NCBI GenBank assembly: GCA_002400885.1
Contig: NVRM01000019.1
Span: 1 to 33,844, forward strand
Length of the DNA stretch: 33,844 nucleotides
Direction of reading: 5' to 3'
Source of the DNA: Flavobacteriaceae bacterium
Lineage (GTDB): Bacteria > Bacteroidota > Bacteroidia > Flavobacteriales > Flavobacteriaceae
The notes below the pieces were generated by a model. It was not told the DNA's origin. It was given only the letters and a program-made list of their open reading frames with translations, and made no database searches. Below, in pieces: positions 4,237-28,730 of this stretch (position 1 is its first letter; each line of letters opens with the position of its first letter). The translations under genes were made by a program, and so were the position numbers.

Positions 4237-4273
4237 AAAAAGCCATATACCGCAAGGGTATATGGCTTTTTTT
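4237..4273 (-). terminator. Terminator of the sigma-factor/DUF4252 operon
   Basis: Near-perfect 14-15 bp stem AAAAGCCATATACC / GGTATATGGCTTTT with a 5-nt loop and T-runs on both strands. On the minus strand it closes the four-gene operon before the aminopeptidase gene. Confidence 0.9.
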
Positions 4274-4295: not shown

Positions 4296-4844
4296 TTAGT
4301 TTTTCGAACTCAAAATATCTTTTAATTGATTGAAATTTAAATTGTCTTCGTCAATTTTTACGTTTTTCAACATTTTAAAAATAGATGCAGGGTTCATGTC
4401 AGTTCCCAAAACACGCATAACTAAAAAACCCTTTTCTTTATCGGCTCCATAAATAACGACTTCATCGATAGCGTCTTCATTTCCTAAGAACTTGACCATC
4501 AGTTCTATTTTCCCACTATTAATTCTCATTAATTCATGGTAAGTCTCTTGTTTTAAAATTGCTTTTACCTTTGTTTTTTCAGCTAAAAATGAAACTTTAC
4601 TATCTTCCGTCAATTGAAAACCTAAAAAATTAATTTTACGGATTGTTTTGGCGATATCTATCATTTCCTGACTAGGATTTTGATCTTTCATTTCCAGTAT
4701 ACTACTCGGTATATCCAAGGCCAAATAATAATCATTCTCTTTACTATCAATAAAAAAACGTTGCAATGACAATTCGTTTGTACAAGAAAGGAAGCTTAGT
4801 ACTGTCATCATTAGTACACTGTATATCTTGATTTTTTGTAGCAT
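4296..4844 (-). CDS. DUF4252 lipoprotein
   Basis: 182-residue predicted lipoprotein: a hydrophobic leader ends in the lipobox LSFLSC, with Cys about position 21. The rest resembles DUF4252, a Bacteroidota family of unknown function. It shares a pattern with its upstream neighbour: a helical stretch, then YHELMRINSGKIELMVKF, a V(I/V)YG strand and a C-terminal segment (NFNQLKDILSSKN). Its ATG lies one base after the stop of the other DUF4252 gene, implying translational coupling. It is the last gene of the ECF sigma operon and a strong terminator follows. I know of no biochemical function for the family; an envelope role is inferred from the lipobox and operon partners. It is probably a diverged tandem duplicate of the neighbour. 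Confidence 0.8.
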   Translation of the reverse strand: MLQKIKIYSVLMMTVLSFLSCTNELSLQRFFIDSKENDYYLALDIPSSILEMKDQNPSQEMIDIAKTIRKINFLGFQLTEDSKVSFLAEKTKVKAILKQETYHELMRINSGKIELMVKFLGNEDAIDEVVIYGADKEKGFLVMRVLGTDMNPASIFKMLKNVKIDEDNLNFNQLKDILSSKN

Positions 4845-4845
4845 C

Positions 4846-5379
4846 TTAATGTTTATTTTTTAATTGATTCCCTGAAATGTGTGGTTCAATAAGAGAAGAT
4901 ATCTTATTTAAATCTATGTTTCCTGTTAAGGATAAAATAACTGCTTCTGGCTTCATTCCATTGAAGTTTATGTTGTTTTTCCCTGTCACCTTCGAGATTC
5001 CATTTACAAACATTAATAATTCCTTTACATGGTCTTCATCCTTCCCTTCTCTCACGTAAATTTTCACATTGGTTCCTTTGTCTTTCACACGCATCAATTC
5101 CGTAAGTTTTGAACTTTTCAAATACGAATTAATCGTTGCTATCATTTTTTTTATCACGATAGGGTCTTCTGCAGTAAACACCTTTAAAGACTCTAAATTT
5201 GCGAGCATCTGTACTTCTTCGTTATCTCCGCTAAATTTACCTAACATTCTAAAGGCGCTTTTACTCACTATTACACTTGTAACTTCATCCATATCTTCGA
5301 ATTTATCAAAGATGGAGGTTTGTGCATAGTTGGTATATGACACCAGGGTTATTGCTAATATAAATAATACTTTTTTCAT
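4846..5379 (-). CDS. Exported DUF4252 protein
   Basis: From the ATG at 5379 this is a 177-residue protein with a classical signal peptide (MKKVLFILAITLVSYTNYAQ) and no lipobox Cys, so a soluble periplasmic product is expected. The mature part fits DUF4252: it opens FDKFEDMDEVTSVIVSKSAF, then has LTELMRVKDKGTNVKIYVR, and ends with SLTGNIDLNKISSLI. The ORF track adds 24 residues from a TTG overlapping the upstream gene; the signal peptide shows the real start. It lies 7 bp after the putative anti-sigma gene and 1 bp before a second DUF4252 gene. Function unknown; it is presumably a target or signalling partner of the sigma factor that heads the operon. Confidence 0.82.
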   Translation of the reverse strand: MKKVLFILAITLVSYTNYAQTSIFDKFEDMDEVTSVIVSKSAFRMLGKFSGDNEEVQMLANLESLKVFTAEDPIVIKKMIATINSYLKSSKLTELMRVKDKGTNVKIYVREGKDEDHVKELLMFVNGISKVTGKNNINFNGMKPEAVILSLTGNIDLNKISSLIEPHISGNQLKNKH

Positions 5380-5386
5380 CACTTTT

Positions 5387-5812
5387 CTATTTTGAACTGT
5401 TAAATATTTTGTTTTTTGTATTTTCAAATTGTTGTAAATGACCGATTGCAACGGTTCCTTTATTTAAATTTGATGCGAGCATTTTTAATGCTACTTGCGT
5501 TTCTGCATATAATTTCTCATTTGCTTTATGCTGTTCATTTTGTTGGTATCCACCATAGACTCCAACCATTAATACGATGGACGCTGCTACTGACAACCAT
5601 TTCCATTTCTGATTTTTACGATTTAAATGGATGGTTTTTGTAAAACGTTCGTTTTTCTCGGTTGCAAAAAATGTGAATAACGCTTGGTACTCTACTAAAT
5701 GTGCTGCTACATTATCGCCAGTAAAATATGTTTGTAACACTTTTTCCTCTGCCAACGTTGTTTCCGCATTCAAATATTTTTCCAACAACTTTTCTATGTT
5801 AAATAATTCCAT
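5387..5812 (-). CDS. Putative membrane anti-sigma protein
   Basis: 141 residues with one transmembrane helix at about 69-87 (WLSVAASIVLMVGVYGGY). The cytoplasmic N-terminal part (LLEKYLNAETTLAEEKVLQ...YFTGD...YQALFTFFATEK) is the form seen in many Bacteroidota proteins encoded beside ECF sigma factors. It lacks the HxxxCxxC zinc motif of classical ZAS anti-sigma factors. The C-terminal ~50 residues would face the periplasm and contain no recognisable sensor fold. Its start overlaps the sigma gene by 14 bp, so translation is probably coupled and the pair made stoichiometrically. Anti-sigma function is inferred from topology and position. Confidence 0.75.
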   Translation of the reverse strand: MELFNIEKLLEKYLNAETTLAEEKVLQTYFTGDNVAAHLVEYQALFTFFATEKNERFTKTIHLNRKNQKWKWLSVAASIVLMVGVYGGYQQNEQHKANEKLYAETQVALKMLASNLNKGTVAIGHLQQFENTKNKIFNSSK

Positions 5813-6308
5813 AATTGTGCTGTTTTATTAATTGTTCTTTTATCGTTTTTCTTGCCCTTGACAGGGATACTCTCACTGCTGTAGGTTTCATTGCAAGCAT
5901 CTTGCCAATCTCCTCAAATTCATACTGCTCCACATCTCTCAATTGTATTATTAACTTTTGTTGTTCTGGCAAATCATCAATGAAACGATGAACTAAACTC
6001 ACACTATCTTTGAGTTCAATCACTTTTTGTAGCGATGTTCCATTCTCTTTATAATTACTGTGTATCAAGGTGAGGTTTGATGCTTGTTTCGATTTCAATC
6101 TATCAAAACAGTAATTCTTAGTCATGGTCATAGCAAAAGCCTCTACACTCCTATACTTGGTCAGTTTTCCTTTATTTTTCCACAACTTAAAAAACAATTC
6201 TTGCGTTGCATCTTCGGCTTCTTCGGTACTCACCAGAAGACGTTTTGCAAGTCGAAAGACTTTATCTTTAAAGGGCATTACTTGATGTAAAAACTCCGAT
6301 TGATTCAT
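5799..6308 (-). CDS. ECF RNA polymerase sigma factor
   Basis: 169-residue two-domain sigma factor. Region 2 covers about residues 10-80 (AEDATQELFFKLWKNKG, then a -10 recognition segment ending NYCFDRLKSKQ). Region 4 covers about 105-160 (LPEQQKLIIQLRDVEQYEFEEIGKML and the helix-turn-helix AVRVSLSRARKTIKEQL). It directs RNA polymerase to stress or envelope promoters. It heads an operon with a membrane putative anti-sigma protein and two DUF4252 proteins. Upstream are a TATTTTTG housekeeping -7 box and one arm of an inverted TTGTAACA pair that could be its own -35 type site. The stimulus is unknown. Confidence 0.93.
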   Translation of the reverse strand: MNQSEFLHQVMPFKDKVFRLAKRLLVSTEEAEDATQELFFKLWKNKGKLTKYRSVEAFAMTMTKNYCFDRLKSKQASNLTLIHSNYKENGTSLQKVIELKDSVSLVHRFIDDLPEQQKLIIQLRDVEQYEFEEIGKMLAMKPTAVRVSLSRARKTIKEQLIKQHNYGII

Positions 6309-6327
6309 TTGATAGTTTGGTTAAAAG

Positions 6328-6335
6328 CAAAAATA
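6328..6335 (-). promoter_or_regulatory. Possible -7 element for the sigma operon
   Basis: TATTTTTG on the minus strand, about 20 bp before the sigma ATG, fits the housekeeping -7 box. A TTG occurs upstream, but only 14 bp away, so the -33 assignment is weak. Confidence 0.4.
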
Positions 6336-6344
6336 TATATGCTT

Positions 6345-6382
6345 TGTTACAATTATGACGAGTCTATTTCGTTTTTGTAACA
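6345..6382. promoter_or_regulatory. 8-bp inverted TGTTACAA / TTGTAACA pair between divergent genes
   Basis: TGTTACAA at 6345-6352 and TTGTAACA at 6375-6382 form a perfect 8-bp inverted repeat around a 22-bp spacer, between the ECF sigma operon and the S41 protease gene. The GTAAC core resembles ECF-type -35 elements (inference), with one copy pointing each way. Confidence 0.5.
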
Positions 6383-6442
6383 TAGGTCGTTAAAAAAAAC
6401 TTATTTTTACCAGAACAAAATTAACAAATATTAGTAAACCAT

Positions 6443-7912
6443 ATGAAATCCAAGAGAAACTTATTTCCAATTGTATTTATTTTCCTAATGATTGCAGGAC
6501 TTACAAGCTGTGACAATGATGAAACAAATGACGTCCCTAAAAATTTAGAAGTTCAAAATTTTGTTTGGAAAGGACTAAATTTATATTATTTATGGCAGCC
6601 AGAAATTCCTATATTACAAGATGACGCCTTTAAAACTCAAGCAGCTTTAAATGCTTATTTAGAAGATTATTCCGATCCAAGTGAGCTTTTTGAAACTTTA
6701 TTATTTGAACGCGGACGTAAAAAAATAGCAGGAGTTACCGATCGGTTTTCATGGTTTATTAATGATTATATCGTTCAGGAAAATGCATTTAAAGGAATTA
6801 AAGAAACCACAGGTATTGCCTTAGGGTTGATACGAATTAAAGATTCAAAAAAGATATTCGCTTCTGTACGCTATGTCATTCCTGGATCTGATGCTGCTGC
6901 AAAAAACATTCAACGTGGAGCTATTTTTACCGGAGTAAATGGCGTCCTCTTAACCGACACTAATTACAAGGACTTATTGTTTGGAAAAAACTTGGATCTC
7001 ACCTTAAATTTTGCAGATTATAATAATGGTGACCCTCAATTAAACGGAACCTCCATTACTGTGAGCAAAACACTTATAGGAGAAAACCCAGTTCACACAA
7101 AGGTAGTACATGAAATTGATGGTAAAAAAATAGGCTACCTTATGTACAATGCATTTACAAGTAAGTATGATCAAGAATTAAACAATGCTTTCGGCTATTT
7201 TAAAACCGAAGGTATCGATGCATTGGTTTTAGATTTAAGGTATAACGGTGGAGGATCTGTCAGAACGGCCACTTACCTTGCCAGTATGATTACAGGTCAG
7301 TTTACGGGAGAATTATTCGCCAAAGAAAACTGGAATCCAAAATGGATGAGTTATTTTAAAAACAACCATCCGGACTATGTTTTAAATAATTTCACTGATA
7401 AATTTAAAAATAACACGACCATAAACAGTTTAAATTTGACAACCATTTATATTTTAACCTCTAGTAGATCTGCATCTGCAAGTGAATTAATCATTAATGG
7501 ATTACTACCTTTTATAGAGGTGAAAATGATTGGAGAAACCACTTACGGGAAATATGTTGGTTCTGTAACCGTATACGATGCTCCTAATTACAGTAGAAAT
7601 AATGCCAACCCTAATCATAAATTCGCCATGCAACCGATTGTGTTAGAAATGGTTAATAAACTAGGCAAGAATAACAAAAACGGTTTCGACCCTAACATCT
7701 CTTTATCAGAAGATTACGGAAATTTAGGTGTACTAGGAGAGGTTTCAGAACCAATGCTAGCCAAAGCCATTCAGCAGATTACTTCTGGAAGTAAGACTTC
7801 CTCTACAAAAACGTCTACTCATTTCATAATGCATAAAACATTGAGTGATAGTAATGAAAACGCTCCTTTAGGAATGAATATGTTCATCGAAAAAGCACTA
7901 CCACAACGCTAA
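6443..7912 (+). CDS. S41 family C-terminal processing peptidase-like lipoprotein
   Basis: 489-residue predicted lipoprotein (lipobox AGLTSC, Cys about 23) of the tail-specific protease family. Order: helical N-terminal region (about 35-110), PDZ-like segment (about 120-190, with GSDAAAKNIQRGAIFTGVNG), then the protease core with LVLDLRYNGGGS near 261-272. The catalytic pair is Ser345 in SRSASASE and Lys370 in GETTYGK, 25 residues apart as in Prc. A Ser/Thr/Lys-rich tail follows. Expected to act at the envelope on unfolded or tagged proteins. It is divergent from the ECF sigma operon and shares the inverted TTGTAACA motif with it, so co-regulation is plausible but unproven. A terminator follows. 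Confidence 0.9.
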   Translation: MKSKRNLFPIVFIFLMIAGLTSCDNDETNDVPKNLEVQNFVWKGLNLYYLWQPEIPILQDDAFKTQAALNAYLEDYSDPSELFETLLFERGRKKIAGVTDRFSWFINDYIVQENAFKGIKETTGIALGLIRIKDSKKIFASVRYVIPGSDAAAKNIQRGAIFTGVNGVLLTDTNYKDLLFGKNLDLTLNFADYNNGDPQLNGTSITVSKTLIGENPVHTKVVHEIDGKKIGYLMYNAFTSKYDQELNNAFGYFKTEGIDALVLDLRYNGGGSVRTATYLASMITGQFTGELFAKENWNPKWMSYFKNNHPDYVLNNFTDKFKNNTTINSLNLTTIYILTSSRSASASELIINGLLPFIEVKMIGETTYGKYVGSVTVYDAPNYSRNNANPNHKFAMQPIVLEMVNKLGKNNKNGFDPNISLSEDYGNLGVLGEVSEPMLAKAIQQITSGSKTSSTKTSTHFIMHKTLSDSNENAPLGMNMFIEKALPQR

Positions 7913-7981: not shown

Positions 7982-9019
7982 ATGCGAACACTTCTTCTCC
8001 CTCTAATCACTTTTTGTTGTTGTTTTATTTCTTGTAAAAAAACATACCTCCCTCGCAACACAATTAAAGTACACATTCAAACCTTTCATAAACCAGGAAC
8101 AAGTATCCGAGCCTTGACTATTTTAAGTGACAGCACAATGATATATGCTGGTTCCCAAGGAGATATAACGACTACGACAGATCTTGGAAAAACATGGAGC
8201 AGTCTCCAAATAAAAACAGATAGTATCGTCCCTCATTTTAGGGCAATTTCTAGCACAAATAATGCTTTTTATGCACTGTCGATTGGAAACCCTGCACTCC
8301 TCTATCAATCCAAAGGAAACGGGTTTAATATTGTTTATAAGGAAGTACACGAAAAAGTGTTTTATAATAGCATGGCGTTTTTTGATGATTTAAATGGCAT
8401 CGCTATGGGAGACCCTACGGATACATGCCTATCTTTGTTAATTACCAGAAATGGTGGAGAATCATGGGCTAAAATAAATTGTGAATTCTTACCGAATATA
8501 CTTCCAGGAGAAGCTGCATTTGCAGCGAGTAATACGAATATTAGCATTGTAGGAAGTCATGCTTGGATCGTAACTGGAGGTACAGCAGCTCGTATTTTCC
8601 ACAGCGAGGACAAGGGCCTTACTTGGGAAGTTTTTCAGACTCCAATCACACAAGAAATTTCTACTACAGGAATTTATACAAGTGCGTTTTTTAACGAGAA
8701 TCAAGGTATTATAATGGGAGGAGATTACACCCGTAAAAGCGAAATAATGCCCAGTAAAGCCCTCACTTATGACGGAGGAAAAACATGGAAAATAATTCCT
8801 CAAGCACAGCCTAGCTTTATTAGTTGCGTTCAATACATTCCTCACACTCAAGGCATGGAGCTATTGGCCACATCCACCCAAGGCATCTATTATTCTAATG
8901 ACCAAGGAAATACCTGGAAAAAAATTAGCGATAAAGGTTTCTTCAGTTTTAGAATGATCGATAAAAATACCGCTTGGATGGCGGGAAATGAACAAGTAGC
9001 ACTCCTAAGAATTCAATAA
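7982..9019 (+). CDS. Asp-box (BNR) beta-propeller lipoprotein, Ycf48-like
   Basis: 345 residues starting with a lipoprotein signal (lipobox CCFISC). Five Asp-box motifs of the S/TxDxGxTW type are spread through the chain: TTDLGKTWSS, TRNGGESWAK, SEDKGLTWEV, TYDGGKTWKI and SNDQGNTWKK. They mark the blades of a sialidase/Ycf48-like propeller. Flavobacterial relatives are often labelled 'oxidoreductase', which nothing in the sequence supports: no cofactor motif is visible. It probably acts as an envelope scaffold or binding protein; its ligand is unknown. The next lipoprotein gene begins one base after its stop, so the two are likely co-transcribed and translationally coupled. Confidence 0.82.
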   Translation: MRTLLLPLITFCCCFISCKKTYLPRNTIKVHIQTFHKPGTSIRALTILSDSTMIYAGSQGDITTTTDLGKTWSSLQIKTDSIVPHFRAISSTNNAFYALSIGNPALLYQSKGNGFNIVYKEVHEKVFYNSMAFFDDLNGIAMGDPTDTCLSLLITRNGGESWAKINCEFLPNILPGEAAFAASNTNISIVGSHAWIVTGGTAARIFHSEDKGLTWEVFQTPITQEISTTGIYTSAFFNENQGIIMGGDYTRKSEIMPSKALTYDGGKTWKIIPQAQPSFISCVQYIPHTQGMELLATSTQGIYYSNDQGNTWKKISDKGFFSFRMIDKNTAWMAGNEQVALLRIQ

Positions 9020-21416: not shown

Positions 21417-21489
21417 GACCTGGTAGCTCAGTTGGTAGAGCACCTCCCTTTTAAGGAGGTGGTCCTGGGTTCGAGCCCCAGCCAGGTCA
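21417..21489 (+). tRNA. tRNA-Lys(UUU)
   Basis: Complete 73-nt cloverleaf: acceptor GACCTGG/CCAGGTC, D-arm GCTCAGTTGGTAGAGC, anticodon stem-loop CCTCC-CTTTTAA-GGAGG with anticodon TTT, T-arm CTGGG-TTCGAGC-CCCAG, discriminator A. CCA is not encoded. A consensus promoter lies just upstream. Confidence 0.97.
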
Positions 21490-21494
21490 CAAAT

Positions 21495-21522
21495 AAGTTA
21501 AGCACTAGCTTAGCTTTTTTTG
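21495..21522 (+). terminator. Hairpin with T-run between the two tRNAs
   Basis: AAGTTAAGC / GCTTAGCTT stem (one wobble), loop ACTA, then T7. It looks like a terminator, which would leave tRNA-Leu dependent on read-through or its own unseen promoter. Confidence 0.65.
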
Positions 21523-21532
21523 TTTAATTACT

Positions 21533-21616
21533 GCGCACGTGGCGGAATTGGTAGACGCGCCAGCTTGAGGGGCTGGTGGAGGCAACTCTGTGGAAGTTCG
21601 AGTCTTCTCGTGCGCA
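21533..21616 (+). tRNA. tRNA-Leu(GAG)
   Basis: 84-nt class II tRNA: acceptor GCGCACG/CGTGCGC, anticodon stem-loop CCAGC-TTGAGGG-GCTGG with anticodon GAG (reads CUU/CUC), long variable arm (GGAGGCAACTCTGT), T-arm GGAAG-TTCGAGT-CTTCT, discriminator A. CCA is not encoded. Confidence 0.96.
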
Positions 21617-22165
21617 CAATAACAACTTACTCCCCTTTCTTCAAAATGAGTAGGTCATAAAGTTTGTTTTCACACTTACTTTGTCAAGTCAAATTCAATT
21701 ATATTTTCAGGCTGTTTTACATGTTTCCTGTAGAAAAATATTTTTTACAGTAATGCTCATTACGCATGAATAAATCACATTCCTAGCATTTTAAGGTTAC
21801 AACTCAGCGCAATCTATCTCAATTATAAAACAACAAGTATCTAATAATCGTGTGTTCTTTTATTTTAAAGTTTCCCTGGGGATTTTAGTATTCGTTCCAA
21901 ATATCACTGCCGTTTTTATAGTAAATGTAATTCCCATGGATAAAACGAGAGGTCGATTGTAAAATCGTCGCATACCAGTTGAGGAATTGAGACGACATGC
22001 AGTTTATTTTTCAGTAGAGTCCTATCTTTTGATTTTGATCCATGAATAGGCCGTTAAAACTTTATCATTCGTCATATATTACGCGATTCAAACGCACAAA
22101 AAAGCTCGTTTAAATAAACGAGCTTTCAGTATTCATTTTACAGAAAAAGTGACACGCTTATCGCT
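21617..22165. other. Long intergenic region after tRNA-Leu
   Basis: 549 bp. Its right end holds the osmC terminator. The rest contains a short CGATT-GTAA-AATCG hairpin near 21955-21970 and scattered AT-rich sequence. I see no ORF with coding features and no RNA family I can name. Confidence 0.5.
22098..22126 (-). terminator. osmC terminator
   Basis: AAAGCTCGTT / AACGAGCTTT stem around TAAATA. The minus-strand side ends in TTTTTT. Confidence 0.88.
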
Positions 22166-23710: not shown

Positions 23711-24175
23711 ATGAGTGACCCTAAAGACTCTAGCTACACAATACTGAAAGAACTAGGTTTAGTAATTCAGTGCCACACCAGGGAAATTTCCCCTGAAAAA
23801 GGAAAATACAGCAGACTTAAAATCTATTTAGATCAAGACTACGACAAAAAATTTATGTTGTTAGTAGATATACGGACGACTAACTTTGTAAGTAAGACCT
23901 CTGAGCTTGACATCCATTTATATGCTGACTTTCTAATTGAGATGCAGCAGAATTATGGATGTAACAGAACTGCAGTATTAACTGATAATCCAGCACAAGT
24001 CGCAAACTCCATGCGCATCATCAGTATTTTAAAAGATTACGGAATGGATTGTCACATTTTCAGCACTTTAGGTGCCGCCAGCAATTGGTTAGGAATTTAC
24101 AATAAAGACAGGCTAAAAGTAGCCGAAAGCCTGCAAGTACTCACGCAGACACTTTCGGCATCTTTCATATTATGA
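23711..24175 (+). CDS. SpoIIAA/STAS-like small protein
   Basis: 154 residues, no leader, cytosolic. The pattern of alternating strands and helices (FMLLVDIRTTNF, a helix LYADFLIEMQQNYG, TAVLTDNPAQVANSMRII, DCHIFSTLGAASNWLGI) looks like the SpoIIAA-like/STAS-related family, whose members typically end in an 'F.t...A..WL' segment. No enzymatic motif is seen and the partner is unknown. It has a promoter with an embedded inverted repeat. Its 3' end overlaps hutG by 6 bp on the opposite strand, and a 12-bp stem inside its last 55 bases may serve as terminator for both genes. Confidence 0.72.
   Translation: MSDPKDSSYTILKELGLVIQCHTREISPEKGKYSRLKIYLDQDYDKKFMLLVDIRTTNFVSKTSELDIHLYADFLIEMQQNYGCNRTAVLTDNPAQVANSMRIISILKDYGMDCHIFSTLGAASNWLGIYNKDRLKVAESLQVLTQTLSASFIL
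24122..24159. terminator. Hairpin inside coding sequence, possible shared terminator
   Basis: GCCGAAAG (24122-24129) pairs with CTTTCGGC (24152-24159), and CTGC with GCAG inside. On the minus strand it is followed by TACTTTTAG. It lies 11 bp beyond the hutG stop, within the neighbouring gene. Confidence 0.45.
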
Positions 24176-25198
24176 TGGACTACTGATCTTTGAAATATTC
24201 ATAACCATATAATCTACAATTTTAGCAACCAAGGTTGCAGTTACATTGTCCCTGTCTAAAGAAGGGTTTAATTCTGCAATATCACAGGAAATTACCTTTT
24301 TCGACGCGAATAGAAAATCGAGCATTTTAAACAAAAAATACGGTGTAAATCCCAAGGCCGATGGTGCACTCACTCCAGGTGCATACGCAGATGAAAAAGC
24401 ATCCATATCTACCGTAATGTAAATCGCATCATTTTTTGCAATAAAATCTGTTAGACGGTCTTTTAAAACGTTCATTTCATGACTTGTGGATTCACATTCA
24501 TAATTAATTGCATAGCTAACATTCTTTTTTTTCGCTATCTCAAATAATTCACGTGTATTAGATTGTTGTTGAATACCAATCGCAAAATAATCCACCTCTT
24601 GACCTTCAGCTCTTAATTCCTTAATGATCTGATTAAAAGGAGTTCCAGAATTAGGACGTCCTTCTACAGGTCTTAAATCAAAATGGGCATCGAAGTTAAT
24701 AATTCCAACCTTCTTTTTGTCTGTGTTTTTTACAGCATCCCAAATCCCCATAAAGTGCCCATAAGACATATCATGACCACCACCGATGGCTATAGGGAAA
24801 ATTTGTTGTTTTAACATGGTGCTAATCACGGCACTTAAAGCGTCTTGACAATTTTCCATATCATCCTCTATACAGTAAACGTCACCGACATCGGCAATAC
24901 GCTTGTTTGTAAAGTGAACGGGGTGTTTTGCCAGGCGTTCACGTATCGCTTTTGGCCCTAGCGCTGCTCCTATTCTCCCTCTATTTCTTCGCACTCCTTC
25001 ATCGCAGACATAGCCCAGTAGCGCAATGTCAATATTTTCATCTACCAAGGCTGTAGTATCCATAGAGGTCAAATCCAATAACTTAACCTCTTGATACCAA
25101 TATTGATTCCCCATATCTGGGTTAGACGCTCGTCCTTCCCAGTTGGATTGTTGTGCAGCCTTATAATGTGCCTTTGTACTTTCCGAAATCACTTTCAT
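24170..25198 (-). CDS. hutG: Formimidoylglutamase (arginase family)
   Basis: 342 residues of the ureohydrolase fold. Manganese-binding motifs are present: GGGHDMSYG, NFDAHFDLRP and VDMDAFSSAYAPGVSAP. From its place in the hut operon it should hydrolyse N-formimidoyl-glutamate to glutamate and formamide, the last step of histidine degradation; agmatinase or arginase activity is less likely. Cytosolic. Third gene of the operon, 34 bp after hutU. The 3' end overlaps the convergent SpoIIAA-like gene by 6 bp. Confidence 0.92.
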   Translation of the reverse strand: MKVISESTKAHYKAAQQSNWEGRASNPDMGNQYWYQEVKLLDLTSMDTTALVDENIDIALLGYVCDEGVRRNRGRIGAALGPKAIRERLAKHPVHFTNKRIADVGDVYCIEDDMENCQDALSAVISTMLKQQIFPIAIGGGHDMSYGHFMGIWDAVKNTDKKKVGIINFDAHFDLRPVEGRPNSGTPFNQIIKELRAEGQEVDYFAIGIQQQSNTRELFEIAKKKNVSYAINYECESTSHEMNVLKDRLTDFIAKNDAIYITVDMDAFSSAYAPGVSAPSALGFTPYFLFKMLDFLFASKKVISCDIAELNPSLDRDNVTATLVAKIVDYMVMNISKISSPS

Positions 25199-25232
25199 TA
25201 TCTCTTTACTATTTTTCGTTGTTTTATTAATT

Positions 25233-27233
25233 TTAAAACAGTTTGTTTATCAAGCTGTCATCCACCAAATTTGGTAATGTCACCTTTAGATTTGGTTCGA
25301 TAGCCATTGCTCTTTTAATGGCGAATATGGCGCCTTCATTTCTTGCCCAGCTACGACGGGATATTCCATTGTTTACATCCCAATGCAACATAGATTTTAA
25401 CCTTCTATCTGCTTGGTCGGTTCCGTCTAATAGCATCCCAAAACCACCATTGACAACTTCTCCCCAGCCAACACCTCCACCATTGTGAATACTTACCCAA
25501 GTCGCACCCCTAAAGGCGTCACCAATTACATTTTGTATGGCCATATCTGCAGTAAATTTAGAGCCGTCATAGATATTAGAAGTTTCTCTATATGGAGAAT
25601 CTGTACCTGAGACATCATGATGATCTCTTCCTAGTACTACAGGTCCTATCTCATCATTGGCAATGGCATTGTTAAATGCTTCTGCTATACGCATACGCCC
25701 TTCGGCATCGGCATATAAAATTCTGGCCTGAGACCCCACTACAAGTTTGTTTGCTCTAGCTCCTTTTATCCATTGGATATTATCGGCCATTTGCTGTTGA
25801 ATTTCGTCAGGGGACGTTTCTTTTAACTCCTCTAGAATAGTTGCCGCAATAGCATCTGTTTTTTCTAAGTCTTTCGGATCACCGGAAGCACAGACCCATC
25901 TAAAAGGACCAAAACCATAGTCAAAACACATAGGTCCCATAATGTCTTGTACATAACTCGGGTACCTAAAATCAATTCCATTGGCTGCCATTACATCGCC
26001 ACCTGCTCTGGAAGCTTCTAATAAAAAGGCATTTCCATAGTCAAAGAAATAAGTTCCTTTTGCGGTGTGATTGTTCACTAAAGATGCGTGCTTACGCAAC
26101 GTTTCTTGAACCTTTACTTTAAACAATTCCGGGTCATTTGCCATCATCTCATTGGCTTCTTCAAAGCTAATTCCCTGAGGATAATAGCCACCTGCCCAAG
26201 GGTTGTGAAGTGATGTTTGATCCGAACCTAAATCCACATAGATGTTTTCGGTATCAAATTTCTCCCACACATCTACGACATTCCCTAAATAACCGATAGA
26301 GACCACTTCTTTGGCTTCCTTGGCTAATCTTACACGTGCTACCAAGGCATCGATATCAGAAATTACTTCGTCTATCCATCCTTGTTCATGTCTTATTTTA
26401 GTGATCTTAGCGTTTACTTCGGCACAAACGGTAATACAACCTGCAATGTTACCCGCTTTTGGCTGTGCACCACTCATACCTCCTAAACCAGCAGTTAAAA
26501 ACACCTTCCCGGCTAAATCCTCTCCGTTCTTCGCTATTTTTCGACCTGCATTTAACAAGGTAATGGTAGTTCCATGTACGATTCCCTGAGGACCTATATA
26601 CATAAACGAACCAGCAGTCATTTGACCATATTGACTCACTCCCAAAGCATTGAACTTTTCATAGTCGTCCTGCTTAGAATAATTAGGAATTACCATCCCG
26701 TTTGTAACCACTACTCGAGGTGCATCTTTATGAGATGGATACAAGCCCATTGGATGTCCAGAATACATGACCAAAGTCTGCTCATCTGTCATTTCCGACA
26801 AGTACTGCATGGTTAGTAGGTACTGTGCCCAATTGGAAAATACCGCTCCATTTCCTCCATAGGTAATCAGTTCAAGCGGATGTTGTGCAATTTCATGACT
26901 CAAATTATTCTGAATCATAAGCATAATGGCCTGTGCTTGCAAAGATTTCCCTGGATATTCACTGATAGGTCTAGCAAAAAGTTCATAATCGGGATGAAAA
27001 CGATGCATATATATACGTCCGTATTCTTTTAATTCCGCTGCAAACTCCTTTGCCAATACAGGGTGATGTTTCGCTTCAAAATACCTTAGGGCGTTTCTAA
27101 TGGCTAATTCCTTCTCTTCTTTCGATAAGATGTCTTTCCGTTTCGGAGCTCTGTTAATGGCGGTGTCAAACGTTTTTAACGCAGGCAACTCAGATGGAAT
27201 CCCCTGCTGAATTTGTTCTTTAAATGTCATCAT
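25233..27233 (-). CDS. hutU: Urocanate hydratase
   Basis: 666 residues; converts urocanate to imidazolonepropionate using tightly bound NAD+ as an electrophile. Family motifs include TYGGNGAVFSNWAQYLLTM, MYSGHPMGLYPSHKDAPR, TAGLGGMSGAQPKAGNIAG, and the C-terminal VSIHNGGGVGWGEVVNGGFGMLLDGT. It is clearly longer than the ~555-residue proteobacterial HutU and close to the ~676-residue animal form, with an extended N-terminal region (about 1-90). Cytosolic. Six bases after hutH and 34 before hutG, so one operon. Confidence 0.95.
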   Translation of the reverse strand: MMTFKEQIQQGIPSELPALKTFDTAINRAPKRKDILSKEEKELAIRNALRYFEAKHHPVLAKEFAAELKEYGRIYMHRFHPDYELFARPISEYPGKSLQAQAIMLMIQNNLSHEIAQHPLELITYGGNGAVFSNWAQYLLTMQYLSEMTDEQTLVMYSGHPMGLYPSHKDAPRVVVTNGMVIPNYSKQDDYEKFNALGVSQYGQMTAGSFMYIGPQGIVHGTTITLLNAGRKIAKNGEDLAGKVFLTAGLGGMSGAQPKAGNIAGCITVCAEVNAKITKIRHEQGWIDEVISDIDALVARVRLAKEAKEVVSIGYLGNVVDVWEKFDTENIYVDLGSDQTSLHNPWAGGYYPQGISFEEANEMMANDPELFKVKVQETLRKHASLVNNHTAKGTYFFDYGNAFLLEASRAGGDVMAANGIDFRYPSYVQDIMGPMCFDYGFGPFRWVCASGDPKDLEKTDAIAATILEELKETSPDEIQQQMADNIQWIKGARANKLVVGSQARILYADAEGRMRIAEAFNNAIANDEIGPVVLGRDHHDVSGTDSPYRETSNIYDGSKFTADMAIQNVIGDAFRGATWVSIHNGGGVGWGEVVNGGFGMLLDGTDQADRRLKSMLHWDVNNGISRRSWARNEGAIFAIKRAMAIEPNLKVTLPNLVDDSLINKLF

Positions 27234-27239
27234 CCCTTT

Positions 27240-28730
27240 TTATTTTACAATGAATTTTTCTTCTTTTACCATGTCTATCATAGCATTAATATCATCTTTT
27301 AAGATTCTATCGTCTTCTAATTTATCTACTTTACTTCGTATGATCGCAAAGTTGGCCTCTATAATTTTAGAAAATTTGTTTGGTTTTCTAAATTCAAGTG
27401 CTTGTGCACCATACATCAACTCAATGGCCAATATTTTTTCTATATTCCCTAATATCTGATTAAATTTTCGTCCAGAAATACTTCCCATAGACACGTGATC
27501 TTCTTGTCCTAAAGAGGTAGGAACACTATCCGCTGAAGGAGGAAAACATAAAGATTTGTTTTCTGTAACTAAGGCTGCCGTGGTGTATTGTGGAATCATA
27601 AAACCTGAATTCAACCCTCCAGCTGCAGTTAATAAACGAGGCAATCCATACAGGCCTTCTAATAATAAATAACAGCGTCTGTCTGCTATATTCCCTAATT
27701 CCGAAGAAGCCAATGCACAGTAATCAATGGCCATTGCCAAGGGTTGTCCATGGAAGTTCCCTCCCGAAATAGCTTCCGTATCACTCAAAATAATTGGATT
27801 GTCGGTTACGGAATTTAATTCCACTTCCGCCAATTCATTCAGGTGGAAAAAAGCATTTCTAGAAGCTCCATGTACCTGAGGGATACAACGTAATGAATAC
27901 GGATCCTGAACACGTTCACAATTTATATGAGATTTTAAATTGGGAGAATCTTTTAATAGCATACGCATGCGTTCTGCTACCAGTAACGTTCCTTTAAAAG
28001 GACGGATTCTATGTAATTCTTCTCTAAATGGTGAGGCACTTCCTTGGAAACCTTCCAAACTCATCGCACCCGCTACATCAGCAAGGTTTAATAAGTATTC
28101 CATTTTTTGCAAACCTACTACCGTATGAGCTAAAATAAATTGTGTCCCATTAATCAAGCCCAAACCTTCTTTGGCTTCAAGGACTATGATGTCTAGACCA
28201 TGTGCTTTTAATACTTCTTTTGCAGGTATAATTTCATCGTTTTTCCAAAATTCTCCTTCTCCTAATAAAGGTAAGAACAAATGTGATAAGGGCGCCAAAT
28301 CTCCGGATGCACCTACCGACCCTTGTTCTGGAACTACGGGTAATAGATCGTTTTCTATAAAGTATAAGATGCGTTCAATTACAGACAATCGCACCCCTGA
28401 ATAACCTTGACATAAGGCGTGAACCTTACAAATCATCATTATTTTAGAGAATTTTTTATCAATTGAATTCCCCACACCTACTGCATGCGTTATCAATAAG
28501 TTTTTTTGTAGTTTACTCGTATCGTTTTTCGAGATTTGAGTATCACATAAAGGACCAAATCCTGTATTAATTCCATACACTGCCTTGTCGCCATTGGCCA
28601 TCTTTTCTACTTTAGCGCGACATGTATTTACCTTTTCTATAGCAAGGTCTGTTAATGAGGTTTTCAATTCGCCCGAGGCGATCTTTAAAACTTTAGAGAC
28701 TGTAAGTTGATCTATTCCGTATTTAAACAT
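27240..28730 (-). CDS. hutH: Histidine ammonia-lyase
   Basis: 496 residues; deaminates histidine to urocanate and ammonia. The Ala141-Ser142-Gly143 triad that cyclises into the MIO cofactor lies in GSVGASGDLAPLSHL. YGINTGFGPL near 52-61 carries the catalytic Tyr, and SVTDNPIIL, GGNFHGQPLA and QEDHVSMGS are other active-site segments. Cytosolic tetramer expected. First gene of the hut operon, with a consensus promoter about 12 bp before its ATG that overlaps the divergent LysR promoter. Histidine or urocanate induction via the LysR protein is an inference. Confidence 0.97.
   Translation of the reverse strand: MFKYGIDQLTVSKVLKIASGELKTSLTDLAIEKVNTCRAKVEKMANGDKAVYGINTGFGPLCDTQISKNDTSKLQKNLLITHAVGVGNSIDKKFSKIMMICKVHALCQGYSGVRLSVIERILYFIENDLLPVVPEQGSVGASGDLAPLSHLFLPLLGEGEFWKNDEIIPAKEVLKAHGLDIIVLEAKEGLGLINGTQFILAHTVVGLQKMEYLLNLADVAGAMSLEGFQGSASPFREELHRIRPFKGTLLVAERMRMLLKDSPNLKSHINCERVQDPYSLRCIPQVHGASRNAFFHLNELAEVELNSVTDNPIILSDTEAISGGNFHGQPLAMAIDYCALASSELGNIADRRCYLLLEGLYGLPRLLTAAGGLNSGFMIPQYTTAALVTENKSLCFPPSADSVPTSLGQEDHVSMGSISGRKFNQILGNIEKILAIELMYGAQALEFRKPNKFSKIIEANFAIIRSKVDKLEDDRILKDDINAMIDMVKEEKFIVK

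Follow-up and report, generated by a model that had tools for sequence, protein, structure and literature searches.

A conserved SigCH-type sigma factor operon of the Bacteroidota and a possible role for DUF4252 proteins at the anti-sigma tail

A stretch of DNA of 33,844 nucleotides from a Flavobacteriaceae bacterium (assembly GCA_002400885.1, contig NVRM01000019.1; the whole stretch is referred to here as the window) carries a compact four-gene operon that encodes an extracytoplasmic function (ECF) sigma factor, a one-pass membrane protein that is its putative anti-sigma factor (gene 2), and two DUF4252 proteins, one exported and one a lipoprotein. This is very probably an autoregulated envelope-stress operon of the SigCH (PG0214/GFO_1088) type, and we regard the odds as evenly balanced that this frame holds together with an action of the DUF4252 proteins on the periplasmic tail of the anti-sigma factor. 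In the most specific form of the model, to which we give a probability of roughly one in three, a soluble and a lipid-anchored DUF4252 protein would dock on the short tail of a zinc-less anti-sigma factor and control its cutting by a dedicated S41 peptidase encoded in the divergent direction, in a feedback loop that would date from the base of the Bacteroidota (in the GTDB sense). What sequence shows is the operon and its conservation, a promoter motif that precedes nearly all of its sigma genes, a predicted regulon, and the joint inheritance of the tail and DUF4252.

Results

Organization of the operon

All four genes lie on the reverse strand. The sigma factor gene (5799–6308; 169 residues) belongs to the sigma_PG0214/GFO_1088 family (233.2 bits in NCBIfam, cut-off 130), with Pfam sigma-70 region 2 and region 4 domains at E values of 2.8e-12 and 1.9e-11. 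It is followed by gene 2 (5387–5812; 141 residues, one transmembrane helix and no zinc motif), by DUF4252-1 (4846–5379; 177 residues, with a signal peptide and no lipobox; GFO_1090, 180.5 bits, cut-off 150), and by DUF4252-2 (4296–4844; 182 residues, with the lipobox LSC at Cys21; GFO_1091, 182.4 bits, cut-off 115). Both DUF4252 proteins match Pfam PF14060 above its gathering cut-off of 23.9 bits, with 99.8 bits (E 1.6e-28) for the first and 69.8 bits (E 3.1e-19) for the second. DUF4252-1 can also be read as a longer open reading frame (ORF) from a TTG at 5451, an unlikely start because the alignment to the NCBIfam model begins at residue 1 of the form that starts at ATG 5379. The sigma gene and gene 2 overlap by 14 bp, gaps of 7 bp and 1 bp separate the genes that follow, and a 15-pair hairpin with a T tail (4237–4271, reverse strand) closes the operon as an intrinsic terminator (−22.1 kcal/mol over a 63-base stretch, z −6.15, with 0 of 200 shuffles folding as well). 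In all of these spacings, and in the single strong terminator, the layout given by the initial annotation of positions 4296–6442 agrees exactly with the coordinates.

Conservation across the Bacteroidota

Of 198 genomes surveyed across the phylum, 61 have DUF4252. Searching these loci with profiles built in this analysis, we found a sigma factor gene of this family no more than 3 kb upstream of DUF4252 in 57 of the 61; 107 of the 120 DUF4252 ORFs sit in sigma-linked clusters. For a gene placed at random, the expected linkage is about 1% by a rough estimate that assumes some 30 ECF genes per 4 Mb. The 57 clusters hold two DUF4252 copies in 42 cases, three in 4, and one in 11, and the sigma gene overlaps gene 2 by exactly 14 bp in 18 of them. 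A second set of named genomes, comprising 80 fetched loci and the window and drawn mostly from the Flavobacteriaceae (Lutibacter, Tenacibaculum, Polaribacter, Flavobacterium, Zobellia, and others), shows the order sigma, anti-sigma, DUF4252, DUF4252 in 61 of 81 loci, with a third DUF4252 gene in 10 more. The four-gene arrangement is not a product of chance. The initial annotation had proposed a survey of this kind and had taken missing linkage between DUF4252 and ECF sigma genes as the outcome that would count against it; the outcome here is clearly the opposite.

Gene 2, the putative anti-sigma factor

Common to the 79 orthologues of gene 2 are a cytoplasmic domain (IEKLLEKY..GETTL.EE..LK.YF), a single transmembrane helix, and a periplasmic tail with the motif A-x-E-T-x-K-A-L-x-L-x-S-x-N-x-N-K-G. 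In the AlphaFold model of the window protein, confident helices span residues 3–14, 20–31, and 37–51, the transmembrane helix spans residues 69–92 (5537–5608, reverse strand), and two helices lie outside; the conserved tail occupies residues 98–138 (5399–5521, reverse strand). A CxxC motif is present in 0 of the 79 orthologues, so that the HxxxCxxC signature of zinc-binding anti-sigma factors is lacking and the initial description of a one-pass membrane protein without a zinc motif extends to the whole group. From its position and layout we infer that gene 2 is the anti-sigma factor of the adjacent sigma factor. Distant members match anti-sigma models with E values of 1.6e-9 and 1.3e-7, below the curated cut-offs; a profile-profile comparison of Flavobacteriaceae and distant anti-sigmas finds only a 27-column match in the tail (E 0.013, probability 3%), and the two sets were not joined.

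These data also bear on a different view of gene 2, as a membrane anchor for DUF4252 in an operon whose sigma factor is controlled only at the level of transcription. The window protein matches no recognised anti-sigma family in Pfam or NCBIfam, and one locus described below (L085) keeps the anchor and DUF4252 with no sigma gene. Such a role does not account for the translational overlap with the sigma gene at exactly 14 bp in 18 clusters, for the three-helix cytoplasmic domain of the AlphaFold model, for an outer tail that has been exchanged independently while the cytoplasmic domain stayed, or for the sub-threshold anti-sigma matches of the distant members, and we consider it improbable.

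We note that two loci (L096:3795-4589 and L101:5513-6304) encode an anti-sigma factor with three tandem cytoplasmic domains, scoring 166–167 bits against about 60 for a single copy; one such molecule might therefore hold up to three sigma factors.

Joint inheritance of the tail and DUF4252

A profile of the tail only was built from the Flavobacteriaceae and scored against other anti-sigmas. Outside that family, 12 of the 14 DUF4252-linked members with a detectable cytoplasmic domain score between 8.6 and 36.5 bits; the tail of one of the two low-scoring members (L104) is similar by eye and that of the other (L094) is not. Many DUF4252-linked anti-sigmas of other families reach 20–36 bits. All 25 anti-sigmas without DUF4252 score at or below 1.6 bits. 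In five members without DUF4252 (L132–L136) the cytoplasmic domain is clearly homologous (22–69 bits) and the sigma factors nest in the same tree; 12 of 14 against 0 of 5 gives a Fisher p of 0.002, uncorrected for relatedness. In these five, something else stands in place of the tail: HEAT repeats, with a DUF4097 protein and another exported protein encoded alongside, or a different sequence next to an exported plug-domain protein. The HEAT-repeat form is found in L132, L133, and L134, where the gene order continues with the toastrack DUF4097 protein and then the second exported protein; L132 and L133 also carry a second, divergent sigma/anti-sigma pair.

The converse loss is presented by L085:219-1013 (genome G154, of the genus cluster to which the Flavobacterium-like loci belong), in which the sigma gene and the cytoplasmic domain are missing within an unbroken contig and the transmembrane helix, the tail, and DUF4252 are retained beside the S41 gene. 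The best sigma match anywhere in this genome has an E value of only 2e-25, and the strict form of the promoter site is absent. Sequence comparison thus indicates that the periplasmic tail and DUF4252 are inherited jointly. The initial annotation had offered modulation of the anti-sigma factor from the periplasm as a model, and the finding that tail and DUF4252 stay, disappear, or change as a unit lends it indirect support.

The same genetic data would fit DUF4252 proteins that act as direct inducers, pulling on or unfolding the anti-sigma factor upon damage or ligand binding, instead of protecting it, as the sign of the effect is not set by sequence. An activator that drives its own synthesis would form a positive feedback that would tend to lock the switch on, and we think direct induction unlikely.

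Promoter and predicted regulon

Regions upstream of the sigma genes share the motif TGTAACA-N15/16-CGTC, of which some form occurs at the same place before 53 of the 57 DUF4252-linked sigma genes, with a spacer of 15 or 16 in 51 of the 53. Of the 57 clusters, 40 contain the strict form, TGTAAC-N14-17-CGTC, where shuffles would give 0.035, and the motif precedes 76 of the 81 sigma genes of the named set. In the window it reads TGTTACA-N15-CGTC (6357–6382, reverse strand), 48 bp 5' of the sigma ATG, and is predicted to be the autoregulatory site. At L094 the anti-sigma and DUF4252 genes keep the promoter though the sigma gene is not beside them. A scan for sigma-70-type promoters was uninformative for the Bacteroidota.

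Genome-wide, the strict pattern gives 47 sites against 3 for the reversed pattern in 12 Flavobacteriaceae genomes, and 4 against 6, the level of chance, in 13 genomes that lack a linked sigma gene; outside the Flavobacteriaceae the signal is weaker (24 sites against 16), and in several of those genomes the operon itself is the only target. In the genome from which the window comes, sites precede genes for a solitary DUF4252 lipoprotein (C64), a DUF4395 membrane protein (C28), an ATP-binding cassette (ABC) ATPase (C122), a DUF5686 protein (C25), and a TolC channel (C141). The genes behind such sites recur, with the ABC ATPase in 8 of 13 genomes, TolC in 4, and DUF5686, DUF456, and solitary DUF4252 in 3 each, and in one genome of another class the ABC ATPase and a CarboxypepD-type protein are again found behind sites. 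The ABC ATPase lies nearest to lantibiotic-protection and drug-export subunits, below their cut-offs. The near-universal promoter and the predicted regulon, together with the conserved S41 neighbour described below, go beyond what the initial annotation had recorded.

The regulon raises the possibility that the DUF4252 proteins could be effectors only, namely protective envelope proteins that are made when the sigma factor is active and have no contact with the anti-sigma factor. Solitary DUF4252 ORFs bear the same promoter in five cases at four loci (L064, L069, L074, L076), as plain regulon members would, with six others lacking it; in those genomes outside the Flavobacteriaceae where no target beyond the operon is seen, the sigma factor would chiefly yield DUF4252; and the CirYZ-Spy operon of Phocaeicola vulgatus offers a published parallel (PMC13114119). 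This account leaves unexplained why the fate of the anti-sigma tail, be it retention, loss, or exchange, goes with that of DUF4252, and why tail and DUF4252 survive without the sigma factor in L085. We think it less likely than not, though the likeliest of the alternatives.

A separate clade of solitary DUF4252 genes, represented by L065 (C137 of the window's own genome), L081, L083, and L089, has no promoter of this type; those of L083 and L089 lie directly behind another gene and are therefore perhaps under other control.

The DUF4252 proteins

The initial annotation had noted that the two DUF4252 proteins differ in localisation signal, and this division is general, as 70 of 74 last-position proteins and 0 of 78 first-position proteins have a lipobox. 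It had further suggested a duplication with split roles; a simple duplication of this kind is not supported, and a recent one was rejected: in the tree, first- and last-position proteins form separate old clades within the Flavobacteriaceae (support 100/97 and 100/99), and the window pair share only about 25% identity over 95 residues. First- and last-position copies separate again within distant classes, and the split into exported protein and lipoprotein occurs there as well as in the Flavobacteriaceae. The middle copies of three-copy Flavobacteriaceae operons are, by the same tree, recent doubles of the first copy.

DUF4252-1 is modelled by AlphaFold as an alpha/beta domain (predicted local distance difference test 85, predicted template modelling score 0.78). 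No match to a known fold was found below an E value of 0.001 among PDB or viral structures, where the top matches have template modelling scores of about 0.3 or lower, and a sequence search of the PDB yielded no relative worth keeping. None of the 120 DUF4252 ORFs is fused to an anti-sigma domain. The only fusion among them joins the first DUF4252 to a head-GIN (DUF2807) domain (L090:4336-5601 and L091:4488-5759); some long DUF4252 ORFs in GC-rich genomes carry spurious N-terminal extensions and do not count as fusions. At three loci (L107:1018-2274, L111:4312-5649, L124:4492-5775) the first DUF4252 protein has long C-terminal acidic, cysteine-containing repeats of the DDDEDCIE type, and the extension in L107 has no Pfam match.

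The S41 peptidase and other genes of the window

The gene for an S41 C-terminal-processing peptidase (6443–7912, forward strand) starts one base past the stretch covered by the initial annotation and diverges from the sigma gene. Its product, a probable lipoprotein, matches the NCBIfam model S41_Gfo1087 with 602 bits (cut-off 455) and PF03572 with 66 bits, and the motifs SAsE and T-x-GK of the Ser/Lys active site typical of the Prc/CtpA type are conserved. Of 75 named loci, 66 have a divergent S41 gene as the neighbour of the sigma gene, and 59 of 67 S41 orthologues carry a lipobox. The S41 protease Prc breaks down the periplasmic part of FoxR when no partner shields it (PMC11637429), and by this precedent the S41 peptidase is a plausible candidate for cutting gene 2. 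The downstream gene for an M1 aminopeptidase is retained in just 10 of 72 loci and was ruled out as part of the unit.

The remainder of the window includes a YCF48/BNR-repeat protein gene downstream of the S41 gene (7982–9019, forward strand), genes for tRNA-Lys(ttt) and tRNA-Leu(gag) (21417–21617, forward strand), and a histidine-utilisation row of arginase-family enzyme, urocanase, and aromatic amino acid lyase genes (24170–28730, reverse strand); the tRNA genes and the histidine-utilisation row are ordinary.

Relation to known systems

NCBIfam (release June 2026; equivalog models with curated cut-offs) holds models for the S41 peptidase (GFO_1087, NF058627), the sigma factor (GFO_1088, NF058625), and the two DUF4252 proteins (GFO_1090, NF058626; GFO_1091, NF058619), and the matching window proteins all score above the cut-offs; the set supplies names and no function, and has no matching model for the anti-sigma factor. 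A search of full-text literature found DUF4252 mentioned in some papers and no description of the four-gene unit, nor did we find a paper that uses the names GFO_1088 or GFO_1090; none of the sources searched assigns a function to DUF4252. The characterisation of the unit as poorly described, made in the initial annotation, is thus apt for function and not for the family, for which models exist and whose Porphyromonas gingivalis sigma factor is SigCH (PMC5607195).

SigCH (PG0214, PGN_0319) is reported to act on cdhR and hmuYR in hemin use (PMC5607195), whereas the regulon predicted here consists of export and envelope genes. It is the same NCBIfam equivalog as the window sigma factor, with a putative anti-sigma gene and a DUF4252 gene adjoining, and PG_0214 to PG_0218, a set made up of these three and two more genes, rise jointly by 5- to 11-fold when a PG_0686 mutant is exposed to peroxide (PMC10101095). 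The literature found on P. gingivalis includes no test of PG0215 or PG0216. A second set in that species, PG0985-0987, is annotated as sigma factor, hypothetical protein, and DUF4252 (PMC10434189), and Prevotella bivia has a run of consecutive locus tags, made up of sigma, hypothetical, and three DUF4252 genes, whose expression is jointly reduced 3- to 4-fold in mixed biofilm (PMC11410844).

Among other systems, CirYZ-Spy resembles the window operon in combining an ECF sigma factor, an anti-sigma factor, and exported stress proteins (PMC13114119), and differs in that its downstream protein is the chaperone Spy and not DUF4252. EcfO-Reo and Das1-Dma1 of Bacteroides are likewise ECF envelope-stress pairs from the Bacteroidota, and their regulons include surface or exported proteins, but Reo and Dma1 cross both membranes, whereas gene 2 has 141 residues, one transmembrane helix, and about 45 residues outside; EcfO-Reo was on this ground rejected as the closest system, and gene 2 is not a dual membrane-spanning anti-sigma factor, in which one chain runs from the cytoplasm to the cell surface via an outer-membrane domain. 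In FoxI-FoxR-FoxA with Prc, a periplasmic partner shields the anti-sigma factor from an S41 protease (PMC11637429), but that partner is a domain of a TonB-dependent receptor, and no such gene is present at the window locus. Nor is the unit a FecR-type cell-surface signalling system: neither Pfam nor NCBIfam gives a FecR match, and the neighbours are S41 and M1 peptidases. As a kind, an ECF/anti-sigma operon with exported partners, the unit is known; as far as we could find, the DUF4252-tail arrangement, the promoter, and the regulon are undescribed.

Discussion

The model that we favour can be set out as follows. At rest, the N-terminal three-helix domain of gene 2 would keep the sigma factor at the inner membrane, and its periplasmic tail would serve as the docking site for both DUF4252 proteins, one soluble and one lipid-anchored. 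An envelope disturbance, presumably the signal, would alter this outer complex such that the tail is cut, with the S41 neighbour as the best candidate for the periplasmic cut, and the sigma factor is released. The freed sigma factor would read TGTAACA-N15-CGTC promoters, that of its own operon first, and in the Flavobacteriaceae would also drive additional genes for DUF4252 proteins, together with those for an ABC exporter, a TolC channel, and other proteins of the membrane. Newly made DUF4252 would rebind the tail and reset the switch.

Several observations weigh against this model. Both of its central contacts, the binding of the sigma factor by gene 2 and that of DUF4252 to any partner, are proposed from sequence, and DUF4252 could be an effector only. 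The window gene 2 has no Pfam or NCBIfam family above threshold, and its structural match to the anti-sigma domain of RsiW is very weak (Foldseek E 6.8, probability 0.13). The anti-sigmas without DUF4252 that enter the tail comparison are drawn from two sigma clades, and the regulon assignments in the window's own genome are based on few sites. The S41 gene is not adjacent to the unit in distant taxa, and it was ruled out as a regulon member, the motif being present in the S41 direction in 0 of 68 intergenic regions.

Even so, the module offers concrete points of entry to DUF4252, namely the operon with its 26-bp promoter, a 40-residue tail as a defined candidate partner, and natural swaps as controls. 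If the model is true, it would account for the way in which the envelope is sensed by an ECF pathway that ranks among the most conserved in the Bacteroidota and that takes in the pathway of SigCH in P. gingivalis, and would also supply a predicted regulon of export genes.

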